Source of the DNA: Thermoproteota archaeon
Lineage (GTDB): Archaea > Thermoproteota > Nitrososphaeria > Nitrososphaerales > Nitrosopumilaceae
Length of the DNA stretch: 64,000 nt
Assembly (NCBI GenBank): GCA_003352285.1
Contig: QQVN01000003.1
Location: forward strand, 516,490-580,489
Reading direction: 5' to 3'
Positions 4,972 through 12,738 of this stretch are shown one piece after another. A program made the position numbers and the translations under genes. The notes below the pieces were generated by a model. It was not told the origin of the DNA. It saw nothing but the letters and a program-made list of their open reading frames with translations, and did no database searches. Within the stretch, counting starts at the first letter, position 1, and each line of letters opens with the position of its first letter.

Positions 4972-7089
4972 TTAATCTAAATCAACTATAACTGCAGCTT
5001 TTTCAGAATCTTCTAGTGTATCTCTGACACCATTTAGAATGTGGCTAGTAGATGTAAGGCTAGAATAGTCAGTTAGTTTCAAATTATTTAGCAAAAATAC
5101 TCGTGGTGCAATCTCACTTGATTTTGATTCTAAGAATTCATCTAATTCTTCAAGGATTGAAATTTTTCCGCCCTGAAAGAGTCGACCGTTTTTAATTGAG
5201 AGTTTTTGTTTACCATATCTATCTAAAACTATAATGTGATGTCTATCCTTTTTGCTAAATAATTTCTTGACCGCAATGTGTCCTGTGAACACAAAATAAT
5301 GATCAGACTCAAAGCTAAGGTCAACTAGTTCTTCAGAAATATCGATGATTTCAGCTGCCCTTGTCGTGGCCTGTTCAAGTGTAAATACCGTTTTGTTTGT
5401 AAACTCACTATCAAGCTCCACATTTCCTATGGCAGTGAGTCGCAATACTGCCTTTTCAGGGATAAACTCGGTGTCTATAACTATCGATTCAGGTACTGCT
5501 CCCTTTTTCACCATGACATCATGAATCTGCTTCTCGGCCTCTGATATCAATTCAGGAGTGGGATGTACCATCGATTTTTCCAGTTCTTCTTGAATCATTG
5601 ATGAGGCTACACCAATTGATGAGATTACTTCTGCATGCTCTGCTTTGTAGTATTGGATTCCAAGCTGTTTTGCCACAAAGGGAACCAAAACTGATGCACC
5701 ACCGCCACCTCCGATTATCTTTGTGTTATTTGGGTTAAGCTTGAACTCTTTGAGAATCTTGCTGATGGTCTTTGTAATCTGAAATGATGAGGTCTGAATG
5801 ACAGACATTGCTACGGTAGAATACGAAACGCCTAATTTTTTACCAAGCAGTTCCAGCGCAATTTTTGCTGATTCCTGATTTCCATAGGAGTAATCATCTT
5901 TTTCAATCATTCCTAGTGCATTTGCAGCACACGTATTGGTAATCGCATATGTATTTTCTTTACATTTGATTACGACATACTCCTCATCATTTTCTTTTGG
6001 TTTTATGGTATCAATTTTTCCTGTTTTTAGCTCTTCAGGATCTGCAAAACAGGAATATTTCAGGCCCGCAATATGTGCACTTCGTGGTCCCACTTGGTTT
6101 ACCGAATTATTTTTCAGATTAATCATACTTCCGCCTGCAACACCTAAAATTCTCACATCCATGGAACGAATGCATGTTGGATGCTCATTAATTGTAACAT
6201 ACTTTATCTCAGGCTTGCCATTTTTAATAATACAGATGTTGGTACTTGTGCCACCTACTTCTACAAAAATTCCATTTGTTACTTTTAGATGCAGTAATGC
6301 CCCTGCAACACTGGCTGCCGGTCCAGACAAAATTGTTAGAATGGGTTTTGTCTTGAATGTATCCATACTTGTTATTCCACCATCTCCTTTCATGATCATT
6401 AATGGTGATGTTACACCAGTATTTCGTATTGCCTCTTCAACGTAGTTTGCAACCTGAAAAGTTTTTGGTAACACACTTGCATTTACTGCTGCAGTCAAAG
6501 TTCTAATTTCTAATCCATAAATTCCAGACACTTCATGTGATGAAGTAGACGGCATCTCAAGTTTGCTTGCATTCTCCATAATGAATAATTCATTTGATGG
6601 GTCATCTACACCAAATGCCTCTGTTGCAACTATTGCCTTTGCTCCTTTTTCTCGTAGTTTCTCCAAGGTATGCTGTACATCCTCAGGACCAACTATCTTT
6701 GATGTATCCAAAAACTCATGTTCAACTTTAAGATCATTTTTTGAATTAATTTTTGTATCTTGCAGTTTTGTTCTCTTAACAACATCACGTTTTTCTGGCC
6801 CAACACCCATTGCAACAATTCCAACCTTTGCCACATCTGCTTCTAGTAGTGCATTGATTGCTTGTGTTGTACTATGAGAGATTAGCTCAATGTCTGCAAT
6901 ATCAATCTGAGATTCTTTTAGAATATTTTGTAAAGCAATGACTATTCCCTCAGATACGCCTTTTTTTGCCTGATGAGTTGTAGGAACAGTAGATTTTGCT
7001 AAAATTGCACCAGTCTGTACATCAATTGCTACTGCTTTTGTAAAGGTTCCACCAACATCTATTCCGATTCTAACTCGTTTGTTTGACAT
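4972..7089 (-). CDS. Hydantoinase/oxoprolinase family protein (HyuA-like)
   Basis: The N-terminus has the hydantoinase/oxoprolinase N domain (IGIDVGGTFTKAVAIDVQTG, residues 7-26), an actin-like ATPase fold; a second phosphate-binding signature (VEVGGTSTNICIIKNGKPEI) lies near residue 280 and a glycine-rich loop (IGGGGGASVLVPFVAKQLGI) near 465. At 705 aa it matches HyuA-type subunits. No partner HyuB gene is present. It overlaps the 3' end of the FTR1 permease gene by 20 bp on the same strand, so the two are almost certainly co-transcribed. Family members use ATP to open lactam-like rings or carboxylate ketones; the real substrate is unknown. The membership is clear, the reaction is not. Confidence 0.88.
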   Translation of the reverse strand: MSNKRVRIGIDVGGTFTKAVAIDVQTGAILAKSTVPTTHQAKKGVSEGIVIALQNILKESQIDIADIELISHSTTQAINALLEADVAKVGIVAMGVGPEKRDVVKRTKLQDTKINSKNDLKVEHEFLDTSKIVGPEDVQHTLEKLREKGAKAIVATEAFGVDDPSNELFIMENASKLEMPSTSSHEVSGIYGLEIRTLTAAVNASVLPKTFQVANYVEEAIRNTGVTSPLMIMKGDGGITSMDTFKTKPILTILSGPAASVAGALLHLKVTNGIFVEVGGTSTNICIIKNGKPEIKYVTINEHPTCIRSMDVRILGVAGGSMINLKNNSVNQVGPRSAHIAGLKYSCFADPEELKTGKIDTIKPKENDEEYVVIKCKENTYAITNTCAANALGMIEKDDYSYGNQESAKIALELLGKKLGVSYSTVAMSVIQTSSFQITKTISKILKEFKLNPNNTKIIGGGGGASVLVPFVAKQLGIQYYKAEHAEVISSIGVASSMIQEELEKSMVHPTPELISEAEKQIHDVMVKKGAVPESIVIDTEFIPEKAVLRLTAIGNVELDSEFTNKTVFTLEQATTRAAEIIDISEELVDLSFESDHYFVFTGHIAVKKLFSKKDRHHIIVLDRYGKQKLSIKNGRLFQGGKISILEELDEFLESKSSEIAPRVFLLNNLKLTDYSSLTSTSHILNGVRDTLEDSEKAAVIVDLD

Positions 7090-9295
7090 TTTCCTTCTTC
7101 CAAGATTTTCGCATTTGAGCGATCTTCTTTTCTTTTCTTGGATTAATAACTAGTATGTATGATACTGCGGCCACATAGATACCAAGTAGGACTATTTGGC
7201 CAATTAGAGTCTCAAGTGTGGGGTAAATTCCAGTCATGTGTGCCAAAGTGATATCAAGCCTTGGAATAATGCCAATCATTCCGGTGTAGGGCACTATGTC
7301 TAGTATCTGCAATTCTCGAATGGCATTGCCCAAGAATGCAATTGAGAGGTATGCGCCAATGCCCATGGTTAAACCAAACAGTACTCGCAGTGGAAGTCGC
7401 TTTCCAATCTTTCTCATGAAAAAGTACAATCCTAGTAATGATGCCATTCCCAAGACAAATCCCAGTAAAACATATGCTTCCATGTATTTTGCAAATCCAA
7501 ACATTGCCTGATAGAACAATACAGACTCAAATCCCTCACGATATACAGTAAAGAATGACAGCATAACAAAGACCATCACACTTCCTGTAGTTGTTGCCTG
7601 CCAGACCTTTGCTTTTACAAACTCCATCCATTTTTTGTGTTCAATCTTATTTAGAATCCAGAAGCTGACATAAAACAGAACAGCCGTTGCAGACAACGCA
7701 GCTATTGCCTCAATTAGTTCTCTACTTGCACCCGAGATTGAGATGATATAATTTGCAACAACCCATGTTGCACCTGTTGCACCAATTGCAGCTATGATTC
7801 CATAATAGATGTATTTTTTAAATTTGATATTTCGTGATGCCTCCAAATAAGTAATAATTGCACCAAGAATTAACACAGACTCTAAACCTTCTCTGAATAT
7901 TAGTGCAAATGATGCAGAGAATGCAATCATTGGTGCAAGTGTACCTGTTCCTGTGACTAGTCTCTCTGACTCATCAAGGTTTCTTTTGATTTCAATTGCA
8001 GTCTTTTGTACTTCTTCATATGGAGCTTGCTCTTTTATTTGGTTTCTAAGCTCTGCAAAGAGATATTCCACCTCCAATGTAAAATCAGGATCAATTGGAC
8101 GCAATGGAATCTCAACATACTCGTAGCTATCAAGGTATGCAGTTCTTGCAGTGGCATATGCTGATTGATAATCTTCATTTTGATAGTGAATCATCATTTC
8201 CTGAAGACTGTCTCTAATGAAATCAATCTCGTTTTTCACGCTAGACTTTGCATCATCAGATGCATCACCCATTGCCTTGAGTACACGAGATTCTGCAAAT
8301 GCAGCATTTGGATTTGGATTATTCTGCAAATGTTCCATGACTTTTCCTTCTGCAGTGTTTAGATCAGGGATGATTGATTCAGTCAAGAAAATTTTGATTC
8401 GGTTAGCATCTTGCTTGTTTTTGATCATATCACGTAGTTCTTCTCTCATATCCCACTCCAAAGTATACAGTAACTCAGAGTCCACTCGCTCAATGTTTGG
8501 TTCTAGATACTCAAAGTTTTCAAGATATGCTTCAATTGCTAGCTCTTCTGCTGCGGCATAATCTCCTTCATCTAATTTCACTAGTAGTTGATCATACAAA
8601 GTGTAAATTTTATCATAAAGAGACTTTTCATCAAAGAAGACGTTTTCTGTTCCAACCAAATCCCTCTGTATTGCAGAAGTCATTGCCCCCACTGTAACAA
8701 AATTAGCTTTGTTTTCAACCATCTCTAGTAATTCTTTGTAAAAGGATACTAGCTCCTCATGCAGTCTAGTATCAAAACTAGTTTCTTGTAAAAATCTCTG
8801 CTCAGATTCTGAAAAAAGCGTCTTTGCTAATTTGTATGATGATTCTTTGTTCTTGTCGATAAATTTTTGATATTCTTCATCAGCTATAATCATCATATCT
8901 GATATCATAAATTCTGCCGCATAATCAGAAATAGAATATGTGTCAAGTAAATTCAAAATTTGGCCAATGATTGTAGATGCCTCCTGTGGGTTTGATGTAA
9001 TCGTAGATGGTAAATCAAGGAGAAGTAGGTGAATCTCATCAGTAGTATCAGGATTATTTTCCCTTAATGGAAGCAGGTTATTTGCAAATTGGGCGGATGC
9101 AATCTTGGAGTATTCCTCTGCATCTGCAGTGTTTCCTTGTGAAATCTGCTCATCAGTGTATGTGAGAATTACTTTGGTAATTTCAATCACGGAATATGCT
9201 TTGGAATCAGCAGATTGTGCATAACTTGTTTGGTTGACTCCTGTAAAGGCTAGCGATACGGCAAGAAACAACAAAACAAATCTGCCAAAAGCCAT
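7070..9295 (-). CDS. FTR1-family iron permease with large extracellular helical domain
   Basis: Predicted high-affinity iron permease. A signal peptide (residues 1-26, ending SYAQS) precedes a ~420-residue helical extracellular region, then seven or so hydrophobic helices from ~455 to 720. The two FTR1 iron motifs are intact: REGLE at 468-472 and REGFE at 586-590. The extracellular part contains two copies of a module, residues ~243-305 and ~374-436, each with an AYL-x2-(F/Y)EY-(L/V)E-P core and an acidic ELR helix; the same module ends the neighbouring PEFG-CTERM protein. ATG at 9295 lies ~27 bp after a TATA box (9317-9326), so the mRNA is probably leaderless. A palindrome shared with two neighbouring promoters sits just upstream of it. 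Confidence 0.92.
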   Translation of the reverse strand: MAFGRFVLLFLAVSLAFTGVNQTSYAQSADSKAYSVIEITKVILTYTDEQISQGNTADAEEYSKIASAQFANNLLPLRENNPDTTDEIHLLLLDLPSTITSNPQEASTIIGQILNLLDTYSISDYAAEFMISDMMIIADEEYQKFIDKNKESSYKLAKTLFSESEQRFLQETSFDTRLHEELVSFYKELLEMVENKANFVTVGAMTSAIQRDLVGTENVFFDEKSLYDKIYTLYDQLLVKLDEGDYAAAEELAIEAYLENFEYLEPNIERVDSELLYTLEWDMREELRDMIKNKQDANRIKIFLTESIIPDLNTAEGKVMEHLQNNPNPNAAFAESRVLKAMGDASDDAKSSVKNEIDFIRDSLQEMMIHYQNEDYQSAYATARTAYLDSYEYVEIPLRPIDPDFTLEVEYLFAELRNQIKEQAPYEEVQKTAIEIKRNLDESERLVTGTGTLAPMIAFSASFALIFREGLESVLILGAIITYLEASRNIKFKKYIYYGIIAAIGATGATWVVANYIISISGASRELIEAIAALSATAVLFYVSFWILNKIEHKKWMEFVKAKVWQATTTGSVMVFVMLSFFTVYREGFESVLFYQAMFGFAKYMEAYVLLGFVLGMASLLGLYFFMRKIGKRLPLRVLFGLTMGIGAYLSIAFLGNAIRELQILDIVPYTGMIGIIPRLDITLAHMTGIYPTLETLIGQIVLLGIYVAAVSYILVINPRKEKKIAQMRKSWKKENVKQTS

Positions 9296-9316
9296 ACGGC
9301 AAATTCTCTGTAACCT

Positions 9317-9353
9317 AAATTTAAATGAGATAGTTATTCTATGATTATAGAAT
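9317..9353 (-). promoter_or_regulatory. Promoter of the FTR1-hyuA operon: TATA box plus 18-bp palindromic operator
   Basis: Read on the minus strand, an AT-rich TATA element (ATTTAAATTT, 9317-9326) is centred about 26 bp before the ATG at 9295. Immediately upstream at 9336-9353 is ATTCTATGATTATAGAAT, with perfect ATTCTAT/ATAGAAT arms. The same 18-bp form, ATTCYA-N6-TAGAAY, occurs at matching positions before the genes starting at 10927 and 11685. Confidence 0.65.
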
Positions 9354-9361
9354 GAGAACCA

Positions 9362-10927
9362 CTAAATCTTGATTGCTAGAGTGTTTCTCTTCATCAATGC
9401 AACTACTGAAACTATAGAGATTACTAGTATCAACATTGCAATAGTGCCAAACTCTGGCACTACAGATCTTGCTACCTCCAAATCAGCCAAGAGCAAGTCA
9501 ACTTTTGCATCAATAACATCAGGTGAAGCATTTGATTGAATTAATGAGCGTAACTCTTCTCTCATGTTGACTTCGATTTTTTCCATCAATTCGTGATCAA
9601 CTTCACCTAGTGGATCCTCTACAAACTCATAGTTATCCAAGTATGCAGAACTGACTAAATCATATGCCTTTTGTGAATTACCATTTCTGTATTCAGCTTT
9701 TGCTTGAGTTAGTAGGCTCTGAATGTTATCAATATATCCAAACACATCGGTCTCTACTGCACCACCGGATAGCTCTTGTAGTGTAGAGATATTGTTTAGT
9801 GCCTTACCAACTGTAATGCTAACTTTAGAAGGAGATTCAAACTTTGTGATAATTTCATTTAGGGTTTTAAGATGATTTGCAAGATTTACAGAGTCTGTTT
9901 CAGATAATTCTGTAAATGCATCCTTGTTTTCTTCATACAATTCTGTTGCTTTTGCCAAAAATACAACGGTCTCATCATATTCTTCTTGGTCTACTATTTT
10001 TCCATCAGTAACAGCTGCTGCATATTCTTCTTCAACAAGATTTAGTCTATCATAAATTCCAGATAATGCCAATCCAACTTCAGATGTGTCTCCACCTTCA
10101 TACTCTCTAATAATTAATTCAACTTCATCTAAGATATGATTTAATTCATCTTTCATTTCATCGATACTCATATCAGATTCAACTACCTCAATTACTTCTT
10201 CCATCTCATGCAATAGTTCATTTGCAGATTCTGGACCTAGGGTAGCCTCGATTGATGGATGTAAAGTTCGATAATAGTATAATCCTTCATAAGCAAATTT
10301 TTTGGCATCCGCTACGTTATCATTCTCTAATGCACCAATTGCTTCCTCGATTTCCTCAATTGTCTTTAATTTGAAGATGCCAAGTAACTCACCAGTGATG
10401 GTTTCAGAGTGATTTTGTAATTCAGCAGAGTTTGCCTTTATTTTTTCAAATGCCAAATTAGATTGAAAGTCTGATTTTTCAGAAATCTTGAATTTTTTCT
10501 CCATTACATCATACCATTTGAAGAGACCGTCGGAATCATTATTCTCAAGTGCTTGTTCAATCTTTACAAATGCAATTTTGTAAATTGTCTTATCAACTAC
10601 TTGTCGCTCAAGTTTTGCTTGGTCGATATTTCCCTCTTTGAGTAAATTCTCAATGTCTGTAAATGCAGTAGAGATCAAGTCATGGCTCTCTGCATCTAGT
10701 TCTTGTGCTGCTGACTGGAAATGGTCAACATATGTCTTTTTTGCGTCATTTAGATGCTTTATTGAATCATCAATGTTTGCTGCCTTTTCTGCATTCTCTA
10801 ATGAAGTTTTGATTGAAGACCATGCATCCCCTAGTGTTGAATGGGTAGCTGCAAAAGAGCTTGGAATAATTCCCCCCACTAATACCAGGATTGAAAACAT
10901 TGCAAGAATGGATTTTATTTTCAACAA
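9362..10927 (-). CDS. Secreted PEFG-CTERM surface protein with FTR1-like helical modules
   Basis: A signal peptide (residues 1-26, LAMFSILVLVGGIIPSSFAA) opens a mostly helical, acidic exported protein. The C-terminus is a textbook thaumarchaeal PEFG-CTERM sorting signal: VPEFG at ~490-494, a hydrophobic helix, then MKRN and a basic tail. Residues ~415-488 (core AYLDNYEFVEDPLGEVD, then MREELRSLI) closely match the modules of the adjacent FTR1 permease. Proteins with PEFG-CTERM are thought to be processed and anchored at the cell surface. Start is TTG at 10927; the upstream ATG is out of frame. With its own copy of the FTR1 operator it is likely co-regulated, and I infer a role as surface iron-binding or donor partner. 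Confidence 0.85.
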   Translation of the reverse strand: MLKIKSILAMFSILVLVGGIIPSSFAATHSTLGDAWSSIKTSLENAEKAANIDDSIKHLNDAKKTYVDHFQSAAQELDAESHDLISTAFTDIENLLKEGNIDQAKLERQVVDKTIYKIAFVKIEQALENNDSDGLFKWYDVMEKKFKISEKSDFQSNLAFEKIKANSAELQNHSETITGELLGIFKLKTIEEIEEAIGALENDNVADAKKFAYEGLYYYRTLHPSIEATLGPESANELLHEMEEVIEVVESDMSIDEMKDELNHILDEVELIIREYEGGDTSEVGLALSGIYDRLNLVEEEYAAAVTDGKIVDQEEYDETVVFLAKATELYEENKDAFTELSETDSVNLANHLKTLNEIITKFESPSKVSITVGKALNNISTLQELSGGAVETDVFGYIDNIQSLLTQAKAEYRNGNSQKAYDLVSSAYLDNYEFVEDPLGEVDHELMEKIEVNMREELRSLIQSNASPDVIDAKVDLLLADLEVARSVVPEFGTIAMLILVISIVSVVALMKRNTLAIKI

Positions 10928-10964
10928 GATGCATCAATTAATCCAGTATTATTATCTTTATTCA

Positions 10965-10982
10965 ATTCCAATTTTTTAGAAC
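10965..10982 (-). promoter_or_regulatory. Imperfect copy of the 18-bp operator before the PEFG-CTERM gene
   Basis: ATTCCAATTTTTTAGAAC matches the perfect palindrome at 11730-11747 at 15 of 18 positions and keeps the ATTCYA-N6-TAGAAY form. It lies 38 bp upstream of the TTG start at 10927, and an A/T-rich TATA-like stretch (10945-10957) lies between. The position matches the copies before FTR1 (41 bp) and the wHTH pair (45 bp). Confidence 0.55.
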
Positions 10983-11011
10983 AAGAAATTAAAATGAAAG
11001 TTTTAGTTTTG

Positions 11012-11356
11012 TCAGCTAGATGTATTTGGATAAAGACTCAGCGTCGGCTCTGTTTCATTTATTGTGATTTCAACTTTGCCTATTCTGCTTCTGTACTGTT
11101 TAATTTTTTTTCCTTCATTGGAGATTACAAACTTTTCAACATCAATTAACGCAAGGTCTTCTAAGTGAGACACTGTTTTGTAAACTGTAGAAAGAGAAAT
11201 CTTTAGCTCATCGGCTATCTGCGTAGCATCTTTTGCTTGATTCTTTACTGAAAACAAAACTGCTCTCGTGCAAACATTGCTTAGAGATTCAATAATTTTT
11301 TGCGTAATGTCAAATTCGCTTAATTGAATTATGTTTGGTTTGGTCATGTTTCTCAC
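11012..11356 (-). CDS. Winged-helix transcriptional regulator, second of a tandem pair
   Basis: Small wHTH protein (114 aa). The HTH core is DATQIADELKISLSTVYKTV with wing residues following (LEDLALIDVEKFVISNEGKK, then YRSRIGKVEITIN). It is clearly paralogous to the gene just upstream at 11353-11685: both contain an I/VTQK-(I/V)-(I/L)ESL-(S/A) opening, an (S/T)VYK recognition helix and a YRSRI motif near the end. The ATG overlaps the upstream stop by 4 bp, so the pair is translationally coupled. ArsR/TrmB-like fold; no cysteine metal site is evident. Promoter and palindrome evidence ties the pair to the iron-permease genes. Confidence 0.85.
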   Translation of the reverse strand: MRNMTKPNIIQLSEFDITQKIIESLSNVCTRAVLFSVKNQAKDATQIADELKISLSTVYKTVSHLEDLALIDVEKFVISNEGKKIKQYRSRIGKVEITINETEPTLSLYPNTSS

Positions 11357-11685
11357 GGGTTTGGTATTAACACCAAGTTTGGTTCAGGTTTTTTAATACT
11401 GATATCGGCTTTACTAATTCTTGAACGATATACTTTGTATTTTCTTCCTTTATCTGAAATCATCCATTCTACAACTTCAACAAGTGTTAGCTCTTCTAAA
11501 TCGTTTAATTTTTTGTAGACTGAGCTTAATGGAATTTTTAGCTCGTACGACAAATCAGCAGCAGTCTTTCCTTTTTTGATCATGGAAAATAAAATTGCTC
11601 TTGACTCTGCGTCTGCTAATGATTCTAGAACTTTTTGTGTGACATCATATTTTTTTAATTGCGGTAATGTCAGTCTTTTTGCCAA
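11353..11685 (-). CDS. Winged-helix transcriptional regulator, first of a tandem pair
   Basis: 110-aa wHTH protein with recognition helix IPLSSVYKKLNDLEELTL, followed by a wing and a C-terminal strand pair (YKVYRSRISKADISI). It is the paralogue of the overlapping downstream gene. Start is TTG at 11685, placed exactly ~27 bp after a TATA box at 11709-11716, which indicates a leaderless mRNA. A perfect 18-bp palindrome at 11730-11747 flanks that TATA box, consistent with autoregulation. The pair may act as a heterodimer; this is inference from their tandem arrangement and similarity. Confidence 0.85.
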   Translation of the reverse strand: MAKRLTLPQLKKYDVTQKVLESLADAESRAILFSMIKKGKTAADLSYELKIPLSSVYKKLNDLEELTLVEVVEWMISDKGRKYKVYRSRISKADISIKKPEPNLVLIPNP

Positions 11686-11708
11686 GTGTAATTCGGTAAT
11701 TCTTGAGT

Positions 11709-11747
11709 TATTTAAACGAAAGCCTAGTTATTCTAAATTTTTAGAAT
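11709..11747 (-). promoter_or_regulatory. Promoter of the wHTH pair: TATA box plus perfect 18-bp operator
   Basis: Forward-strand TATTTAAA at 11709-11716 is a minus-strand TATA box centred 27 bp before the TTG at 11685. Upstream at 11730-11747 lies ATTCTAAATTTTTAGAAT, two perfect 8-bp arms around TT. It is the best copy of the operator also found before the FTR1 and PEFG-CTERM genes. Confidence 0.68.
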
Positions 11748-11759
11748 GATAACTGATAA

Positions 11760-12491
11760 TCAGTTAGAAGAGACGTACATCTCTTTGTCAGGCTGGAATT
11801 TATTCCACAGTACACCCAAAATTATTGGAATTGATATCCAAAATGAGGACACTGCAAGAACAGACATCATTCTAAATCCATTTACCAAATCCATTGGAGC
11901 ACCTATCTCATCGGGATTGGCAGGCATTACAACAAACAATGCGCCAATTAATACGCCATATCCTACAACTGAAACAAGTTTCTTTTTTCCTTGGAATCTT
12001 TTTGATAATTGATAAAATCCAACTGCTGCAAATCCAGAGATTGCAATAAATGCCAAAAACAAAACAGAGCGTAACACTACAGTTTCAGGATCACCAACGG
12101 TTGGAGGATTTGCAGGATACTTTAGGAATGGCAGCAAATAGATTGTCAACCACATGATTCCTGCAAGAATCAAGCCTTTTTTGATATTGTTATTTCCTGG
12201 AAGAACCTTCCTAGAATATGCAAATACTATACCAAATAATGCACCAACTGATGTTCCAAGAATCGCACCTGCTAATACTTGCCCGCCTTTTTGCCAGTAT
12301 CGATAAGAATTGTACTCTACCCAGAATTCAGGCGAATCTTTTTCCTCACCAGAAGCAAAGAGGTTCTGGTTTTCTATGTTAATTGCATCATCAAGGTAGG
12401 GTTCTACGATTACTAAATTCACTCCACCATGAATTAATCCCGCAAAGGCACCTGATACCAATACTAGAATAATAAAAAGTGCCGTTTTCAT
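11760..12491 (-). CDS. cbtA: CbtA family, predicted cobalt transporter subunit
   Basis: A membrane protein with about five to six hydrophobic helices, the first containing the CbtA-type AGLIHGGVNLVIVEPYL run (residues ~17-33) with a conserved His in a membrane segment. Later helices lie near residues 78-95, 110-125, 142-160, 175-190 and 215-235. CbtA/CbtB are predicted, from cobalamin-linked regulation in bacteria, to form a cobalt transporter; here it follows cbtB by 9 bp. Cobalt import fits the presence of the cobalamin-dependent methylmalonyl-CoA mutase at 58953-60551. The protein ends 75 bp before the wHTH pair on the same strand, so read-through into those regulators is possible. Confidence 0.8.
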   Translation of the reverse strand: MKTALFIILVLVSGAFAGLIHGGVNLVIVEPYLDDAINIENQNLFASGEEKDSPEFWVEYNSYRYWQKGGQVLAGAILGTSVGALFGIVFAYSRKVLPGNNNIKKGLILAGIMWLTIYLLPFLKYPANPPTVGDPETVVLRSVLFLAFIAISGFAAVGFYQLSKRFQGKKKLVSVVGYGVLIGALFVVMPANPDEIGAPMDLVNGFRMMSVLAVSSFWISIPIILGVLWNKFQPDKEMYVSSN

Positions 12492-12500
12492 GACGAATCA

Positions 12501-12716
12501 CTAATGGCAGGGAAATCCTGCAGCGTGCCTCATGTCATGAGTCAGCTCGTGGATGTAAAGTTGATCAAAAGCTTCTGCGCCTTGAATCATGCTAAACAAA
12601 TGTCCCTGATCATAACCTACAAGGAATAGACCAAAAGCAAAGATTGCAGCGAGTGCAATAACTGCTCCAATTGGAACACTAGATTTAGTTACTGTTATCT
12701 CTCTTGATTGAGACAT
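12501..12716 (-). CDS. cbtB: CbtB family, predicted cobalt transporter subunit
   Basis: A small protein with one transmembrane helix (~19-37, VIALAAIFAFGLFLVGYDQG) and the diagnostic His-rich C-terminus: HELTHDMRHAAGFPCH, expected to bind metal outside the membrane. About 71 aa from ATG at 12716. A TTG 12 bp further upstream is in frame, but a TATA box (forward TATTTAAA near 12738-12746) is ~26 bp before the ATG and favours 12716. A palindrome at 12721-12738 lies between TATA box and start, a classic repressor position. Pairing with cbtA makes the assignment good. Confidence 0.85.
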   Translation of the reverse strand: MSQSREITVTKSSVPIGAVIALAAIFAFGLFLVGYDQGHLFSMIQGAEAFDQLYIHELTHDMRHAAGFPCH

Positions 12717-12720
12717 ACAA

Positions 12721-12738
12721 CAAAACAATTTTGTTTTG
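12721..12738. promoter_or_regulatory. Palindrome at the cbtB transcription start
   Basis: CAAAACAATTTTGTTTTG has perfect 8-bp arms (CAAAACAA/TTGTTTTG) around TT. It begins 5 bp upstream of the cbtB ATG and lies inside the TATA-to-start interval, so a bound protein would block initiation. It differs in sequence from the ATTCYA-N6-TAGAAY operator. Confidence 0.6.

Follow-up and report, generated by a model that had tools for sequence, protein, structure and literature searches.

A palindromic operator of a probable iron-homeostasis regulon in Nitrosopumilaceae, with a single-domain winged-helix protein as candidate binder

Introduction

Among the closest described relatives of the system reported here are two archaeal winged-helix regulators. 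TrmBL1/Tgr of the Thermococcales recognizes the Thermococcales glycolytic motif, a dyad of the form TATCAC-N5-GTGATA, and both for TrmBL1/Tgr and for VNG1451C sites upstream of the TFB recognition element (BRE) and TATA box typically activate, whereas downstream sites repress (PMC4158304). OxsR of Haloferax volcanii, a TrmB-like protein, follows the same position rule, with a site upstream of TATA for activation (PMC9426492). We describe an 18-bp palindrome found before three transcription units in a 64,000-nucleotide stretch of a Nitrosopumilaceae genome (assembly GCA_003352285.1, contig QQVN01000003.1, positions 516,490 to 580,489), hereafter the window. These units encode an FTR1-family iron permease, a PEFG-CTERM surface protein, and a tandem pair of winged helix-turn-helix (wHTH) proteins, wHTH1 and wHTH2. 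We think it rather probable that the palindrome serves as operator for an iron-homeostasis regulon across the Nitrosopumilaceae, with wHTH1 as its binder and as an activator, opposed by a DtxR-type repressor. This would be a new regulon of a known kind, presumably comparable in its working to those of TrmBL1 and OxsR, but built on another dyad and on other targets.

With TrmBL1, the locus shares an archaeal winged helix and a palindrome just upstream of BRE/TATA, but TrmBL1 has a sugar-binding domain and sugar genes as targets, whereas wHTH1 is about 110 amino acids long, lacks an effector domain, and goes with a different dyad and iron-related genes. OxsR is similar in its single winged-helix domain of about 120 amino acids and its upstream activation site (PMC9426492). 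It requires Cys24, however, and responds to oxidants via a CG-rich motif, whereas wHTH1 has no conserved Cys, and the near-invariant Cys of wHTH2 (18 of 20 orthologues) appears to lie at a different place from Cys24. The iron-dependent DtxR/IdeR repressors, whose 14-bp core is TTAGGNNNNCCTAA (PMC8464063), resemble this system in their iron-uptake and Fe-S targets, and a second box at these promoters fits the same core; the 18-bp dyad, however, differs from a DtxR box, wHTH1 does not belong to the DtxR proteins, and here one promoter can have both operators. Lastly, a promoter motif shared by genes of the copper-limitation response is known in Nitrososphaera viennensis (PMC7785015), also an ammonia-oxidising archaeon, but its consensus, TTCSGSMTTTGWACYANT, is not this dyad, its targets are copper genes, and the organism belongs to a different family.

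Much of the nitrification in the sea is the work of ammonia-oxidising archaea, which iron can limit, yet their iron uptake is poorly understood. No iron-specific importer has been reported for Nitrosopumilus maritimus (PMC6776035), and within the open-access literature we found neither a description of this operator nor an iron regulator of ammonia-oxidising archaea. Together, the conserved operator, its candidate regulator, the fixed geometry and the DtxR-type box offer a concrete, testable circuit, in which uptake genes are picked by their regulation instead of their annotation, including a transporter now called a phosphonate importer.

Operator sites and their conservation

Exact matches to ATTCYA-N6-TAGAAY occur in the window only three times: at 9336..9353 in the FTR1 promoter (ATTCTATGATTATAGAAT, whose outer 6+6 bases form a perfect dyad), at 10965..10982 in the PEFG-CTERM promoter (ATTCCAATTTTTTAGAAC), and at 11730..11747 in the promoter of the wHTH pair (ATTCTAAATTTTTAGAAT). 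The three sites claimed in a preliminary description of this DNA are therefore real and correctly placed. They are separated by 40 bp from the start of FTR1 (9295), by 37 bp from that of the PEFG-CTERM gene (10927), and by 44 bp from that of wHTH1 (11685), in agreement with the 41, 38 and 45 bp given earlier, which differ only by counting convention. The further claim that each site lies just beyond a TATA box holds for FTR1 (TTTAAA, 9320..9325, minus strand, 10 bp from the operator) and for wHTH1 (TTTAAA, 11711..11716, minus strand, 13 bp), but not for the PEFG-CTERM gene, which has only a poor AT-rich element.

When two mismatches are allowed, the window contains 47 matches compared to 37.5 ± 8.2 in dinucleotide shuffles. 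This is no excess, so the window alone is weak evidence and genome-wide and held-out tests were required. In the whole 1.69-Mb genome, ATTCYA-N6-TRGAAY is found at 10 places, against 0 (plus strand) and 2 (minus strand) for the reversed control. Among the matches listed, five are in promoters, namely the three window sites, that of a surface-protein gene of like kind (C5:424376) and that of a gene for transcription factor B (TFB; C3:612143), and the other five are within coding sequence, about as many as expected from base composition.

The consensus of the operator is RTTCYA-N6-TRGAAY. FTR1 homologues in 14 further genomes of the same family have the dyad at a similar position in most cases; of 15 FTR1 loci, counting also those of the window genome and of a more distant one, 11 show it with at most one mismatch and eight exactly, whereas permuted half-sites average 0.3. 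In the first genome set, the dyad precedes 25 of 30 wHTH1 orthologues; it is missing in a pair of g2 genomes, in two others of 0.8 Mb and in one more. We then used a held-out set retrieved by wHTH1 alignment. It consists of 80 named contigs from Nitrosopumilus, Nitrosarchaeum, Nitrosotenuis and relatives, a few of which are from the same genomes as the first set. All 80 wHTH1 genes are preceded by the operator at 40-53 bp, with 44 exact sites and none beyond two mismatches. Of 180 permuted half-sites run on the same loci, all matched at most two loci except for a pair overlapping the true pattern, and of spacers from 0 to 12 only spacer 6 gave a comparable count.

The operator is also confined to particular promoters of these loci. 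With at most one mismatch, it is present before wHTH1 (73/75), PhnD-like substrate-binding proteins (SBPs; 46/46), FTR1 (14/15) and surface proteins (5/5), compared to 0/69 for cbtB, 0/67 for cbtA, 1/60 for DsbA and 0/30 for DUF4443. The counts for cbtB and cbtA rule out cbtBA as a core target, to which two genomes (G015 and G032) had pointed. PEFG orthologues in four loci (L152, L154, L186, L192) are preceded by the operator as well. Across 37 Nitrosopumilaceae genomes the exact dyad has 180 forward matches compared to 32 for the control, while in 24 genomes of sister families, where only distant wHTH1 homologues are present, it is not enriched (29 versus 32). Two contigs titled "Nitrososphaeraceae archaeon" (L233, L241) bear a locus of the Nitrosopumilaceae type, and the names or binning of these metagenome-assembled genomes may be wrong.

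These comparisons bear out the earlier argument that repeated position and symmetry speak against chance. Both tests proposed with it came out in its favour, as the site is retained before FTR1 in relatives, in 14/15 held-out FTR1 promoters and in 80/80 held-out wHTH1 promoters, and its counts lie above control in the genome and in the family.

Targets and promoter geometry

Besides the genes named above, the dyad precedes a second family of surface proteins (G000, G015, G032, G034, G004 and held-out loci), the ZIP transporter gene divergent from wHTH1, and the PhnD-like SBP gene, which is the first of an SBP-ATPase-permease operon. In some genomes it is found before sufC (TIGR01978, 317-319 bits, cut-off 213), and it also precedes a 4Fe-4S ferredoxin gene. 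As in other archaeal wHTH regulons, the operator stands at several unlinked units of related function and before the candidate regulator's own operon, and it is kept in relatives. The earlier proposal of a system "autoregulating and controlling iron uptake" is well supported by FTR1, ZIP, sufC and ferredoxin as targets and by the DtxR-type boxes that occur with them. The term "metal regulon" suits this target set, but so far not the sensor, given that the wHTH proteins lack the conserved ligands of a classical metalloregulator. Taken as a whole, the preliminary interpretation is supported.

Promoters of TFB paralogues carry the dyad in 16 of 30 cases at one mismatch or fewer, hinting that a specific TFB may belong to the iron response. 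The TFB with the operator is one of several paralogues per genome (G000:C3:612143-612160, L006; L345-L367), and its promoter has a TTAGCT..ACCTA box in addition. At another locus (L144, G015:C4:190386-191949), the gene of a second wHTH paralogue, itself preceded by an operator, is divergent to a PhnD-type SBP gene that also has one, and a nearby surface-protein gene has a third, the whole being a duplicated copy of the module.

The gap between operator and TATA differs between classes of targets but is nearly fixed within each. In both ZIP promoters, as in every FTR1 promoter examined in the held-out set, it measures 10 bp. PhnD-like promoters have 23 bp in 29 of 32 cases (24 bp in the other three), and most surface-protein promoters have 23-24 bp. 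In held-out wHTH1 promoters the gap is 18 bp in 62 of 80 and 12-13 bp in a minority. An additional TRGAAT half-site, whose end is exactly 10 bp upstream of TATA, occurs in 25 of the 32 PhnD-like promoters, and an extra AGAAY is found about 11 bp before TATA in wHTH1 promoters of the 18-bp class. In every class, therefore, the half-site nearest to TATA precedes it by roughly one helical turn. A pattern coupling operator and TATA misses the 23-bp class, and none of the rates given here were taken from it. The position upstream of BRE/TATA, typical of archaeal activation, favours an activating role.

Candidate binder and second box

The AlphaFold model of wHTH1 (11353..11685, minus strand) shows a single winged helix with a predicted local distance difference test (pLDDT) score of 85.5, and the recognition helix, IPLSSVYKK, is invariant among 29 orthologues. 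The protein scores just above the cut-off of Pfam TrmB PF01978 (26.4 versus 25.6 bits) and wHTH2 below it (21.9 bits). Nevertheless, the 110-residue wHTH1 ends after the wing, and no C-terminal effector domain of the kind found in TrmB sugar regulators was detected. The best structural matches to the model are NolR (4omz), Phr (2p4w) and CzrA (1r1u); such ArsR-fold matches have TM-scores (template modelling scores) of mostly about 0.55-0.70 and 13-27% identity. wHTH1 reaches only 16 bits with the ArsR/SmtB model NF033788 of NCBIfam (cut-off 55), and none of the columns invariant or nearly invariant among its 29 orthologues is a Cys or His, so that the Cys/His/Asp metal site conserved in ArsR/SmtB regulators is absent and direct metal sensing is unlikely. 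We accordingly regard wHTH1 as a classical metal sensor as unsupported.

The preliminary description named both tandem wHTH proteins as the obvious binders. wHTH1 alone seems enough: several genomes in which wHTH2 was not found keep the operator, which rules out wHTH2 as an obligatory partner and leaves wHTH1 as the minimal candidate. As judged from these sequence comparisons, wHTH1 probably binds the operator.

A second palindrome, TTAG-N6-CTAA, which fits the 14-bp DtxR/IdeR core, occurs at many of the same genes. We found it in 30/30 sufC promoters (L285-L314; at most 1 for permuted controls) and in 31/32 held-out PhnD-like promoters (L176-L252), where it begins 9-11 bp after the start of TATA. 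It is also present in several FTR1 promoters (L247, L197, L242) and wHTH1/ZIP promoters, and a variant is found in TFB promoters. DtxR-family genes (PF02742 over cut-off) were found in 15/15 genomes tested. At uptake genes the box is downstream of TATA and at sufC upstream of it, positions that would make sense were iron-loaded DtxR to repress uptake and to allow or assist Fe-S assembly. In the window, a TTAGG half-site (9314..9318, minus strand) follows the FTR1 TATA box at the place where several relatives have the full box; it is probably a remnant or half of that box, of which this promoter would retain one half-site only.

FTR1 and PhnD-like transporters

The unit that follows cbtB-cbtA-wHTH1-wHTH2 is usually either FTR1 or an import operon of the PhnD-like type, and both kinds of unit have an operator of their own. 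The FTR1 version comes with or without surface proteins, often with an oxoprolinase-like gene next. In 37 genomes, FTR1 is present in 15 and the PhnD-like SBP in 16, with both in only one (G030), a near-exclusion for which the hypergeometric P is 2e-4 if relatedness is ignored. Seven genomes have neither. In four of these (G006, G009, G027, G028) the wHTH1 operator lies within a divergent promoter, and the gene on its other side is a ZIP transporter in G006 and G009. This distribution suggests that the PhnD-like transporter may perform the role of FTR1. An example of the PhnD-like operon is L178:4834-7539, with equivalents across L176-L252. By BLAST against only a few queries its ATPase came out closest to sufC, an assignment ruled out by the SBP-ATPase-permease gene order; true sufC targets were identified separately with NCBIfam.

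The PhnD-like SBPs fail the PhnD equivalog TIGR03431 (115 and 143 bits, cut-off 261) but pass the broader TIGR01098 for phosphate, phosphite and phosphonate SBPs (139 and 159 bits, cut-off 112). We propose tentatively, as a possibility that falls slightly short of evenly balanced, that in marine Nitrosopumilaceae without FTR1 this ABC transporter is a high-affinity importer of iron or an iron complex, which replaces FTR1 after cbtBA-wHTH1-wHTH2 and has the same wHTH operator and DtxR-type box in its promoter. If so, this operon would be an iron-specific uptake system of the sort that Nitrosopumilus maritimus has been reported to lack.

Proposed circuit and alternatives

From these observations we infer the binding protein, the sign of regulation and the signal as follows. 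wHTH1, with wHTH2 where present, would bind the dyad just upstream of BRE/TATA as a dimer whose subunits each occupy one half-site, and, given the fixed TATA spacing, would most likely activate by assisting the loading of TATA-binding protein (TBP) and TFB. It would autoregulate its own operon and control iron import, through FTR1 and its surface partners, the PhnD-like importer or the ZIP transporter, and in some genomes also sufC (for Fe-S assembly), a 4Fe-4S ferredoxin and a TFB. Under iron sufficiency, a DtxR/IdeR-type repressor would occupy TTAG-N6-CTAA just after TATA at many of the same promoters, so uptake would be switched on by the wHTH activator in the absence of iron-loaded DtxR. 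Such a promoter would have an unusual layout for archaea, combining two dyads, the upstream one for a probable activator and the downstream one for an iron repressor.

Several observations weigh against this circuit. The lack of conserved Cys or His in wHTH1 means that its tie to iron runs through its targets only, and one large class of these targets is annotated as a phosphonate importer. The operator is rare at sufC (5/30) and ferredoxin (6/30) genes, and five wHTH1 orthologues of the same family have lost their own site with the recognition helix unchanged. Furthermore, an operator so near BRE could equally block TFB. The last point leads to the possibility, which we consider unlikely but worth weighing, that the regulon and binder are the same but wHTH1 is a repressor that blocks TFB/TBP, is released on iron shortage and autoregulates negatively. 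Its nearest structures, NolR, Phr and CzrA, are ArsR-fold single-domain wHTH proteins, most of which are repressors; autoregulatory operators are often repressive too, and the gap permits contact with TFB under either sign. Nevertheless, the rigid 10-bp (or 10+13-bp) phase to TATA suits an activator better, the separate DtxR-type box after TATA is already positioned for repression, and archaeal sites upstream of BRE/TATA usually activate (PMC4158304, PMC9426492).

That the dyad is read by another protein, for instance another wHTH or TrmB-like paralogue, with wHTH1-wHTH2 merely a target, appears quite improbable. Each genome has several related wHTH paralogues, and the five orthologues without a site retain their recognition helix, but the site is almost always found before wHTH1 itself (80/80), the wHTH paralogue in G015 likewise has its own, and enrichment of the dyad tracks the presence of close wHTH1 orthologues. 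We give similarly little credence to a signal other than iron, such as phosphonate or phosphate, copper, cobalt or redox state. It could be suggested by the TIGR01098 scores of the alternative cassette, the adjoining cbtBA (proposed cobalt transport) and the near-invariant Cys of wHTH2, which is reminiscent of the thiol-sensing OxsR; against it, the operator is common to FTR1, ZIP, sufC and ferredoxin genes, DtxR-type boxes are on the same promoters, cbtBA itself has no operator, and the copper-limitation motif of N. viennensis differs (PMC7785015). A resemblance arising by chance, or an AT-rich element common to promoters in general, would agree with the lack of excess in the window at two mismatches, yet it is almost inconceivable in view of the near-zero counts for permuted half-sites and other spacers, and of the spacing and dyad kept across genera; the near-empty neighbouring control promoters (cbtB, cbtA, DsbA, DUF4443) rule out a general promoter element.

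Other features of the locus

The FTR1 permease (7070..9295, minus strand) scores 48.8 bits with Pfam FTR1 (cut-off 25.3) and has two REGxE motifs, REGLE and REGFE, so that both the Pfam cut-off and the REXXE motifs identify it as an FTR1 permease. It has a long extracytoplasmic domain at its N-terminus, which shows distant similarity (tblastn, 29% identity, E 1.2e-8) to the PEFG-CTERM protein (9362..10927, minus strand; TIGR04296 37.9 bits, cut-off 25). No Pfam family covers this domain. A further surface protein elsewhere in the genome (L010:559-1446) has the same operator in front. These proteins may be iron-handling partners at the cell surface.

wHTH2 (11012..11356, minus strand), whose near-invariant Cys is Cys29 in the alignment of 20 orthologues, is the tandem paralogue of wHTH1, and the two reading frames share 4 bp (11353-11356), which suggests translational coupling. 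The conserved upstream neighbours, cbtA and cbtB (11760..12728, minus strand; Pfam CbtA 188 bits, CbtB 39.8 bits), are usually without an operator. Finally, the gene after FTR1, here and in most FTR1 loci, is a hydantoinase/oxoprolinase-like gene (window 4972-7089).

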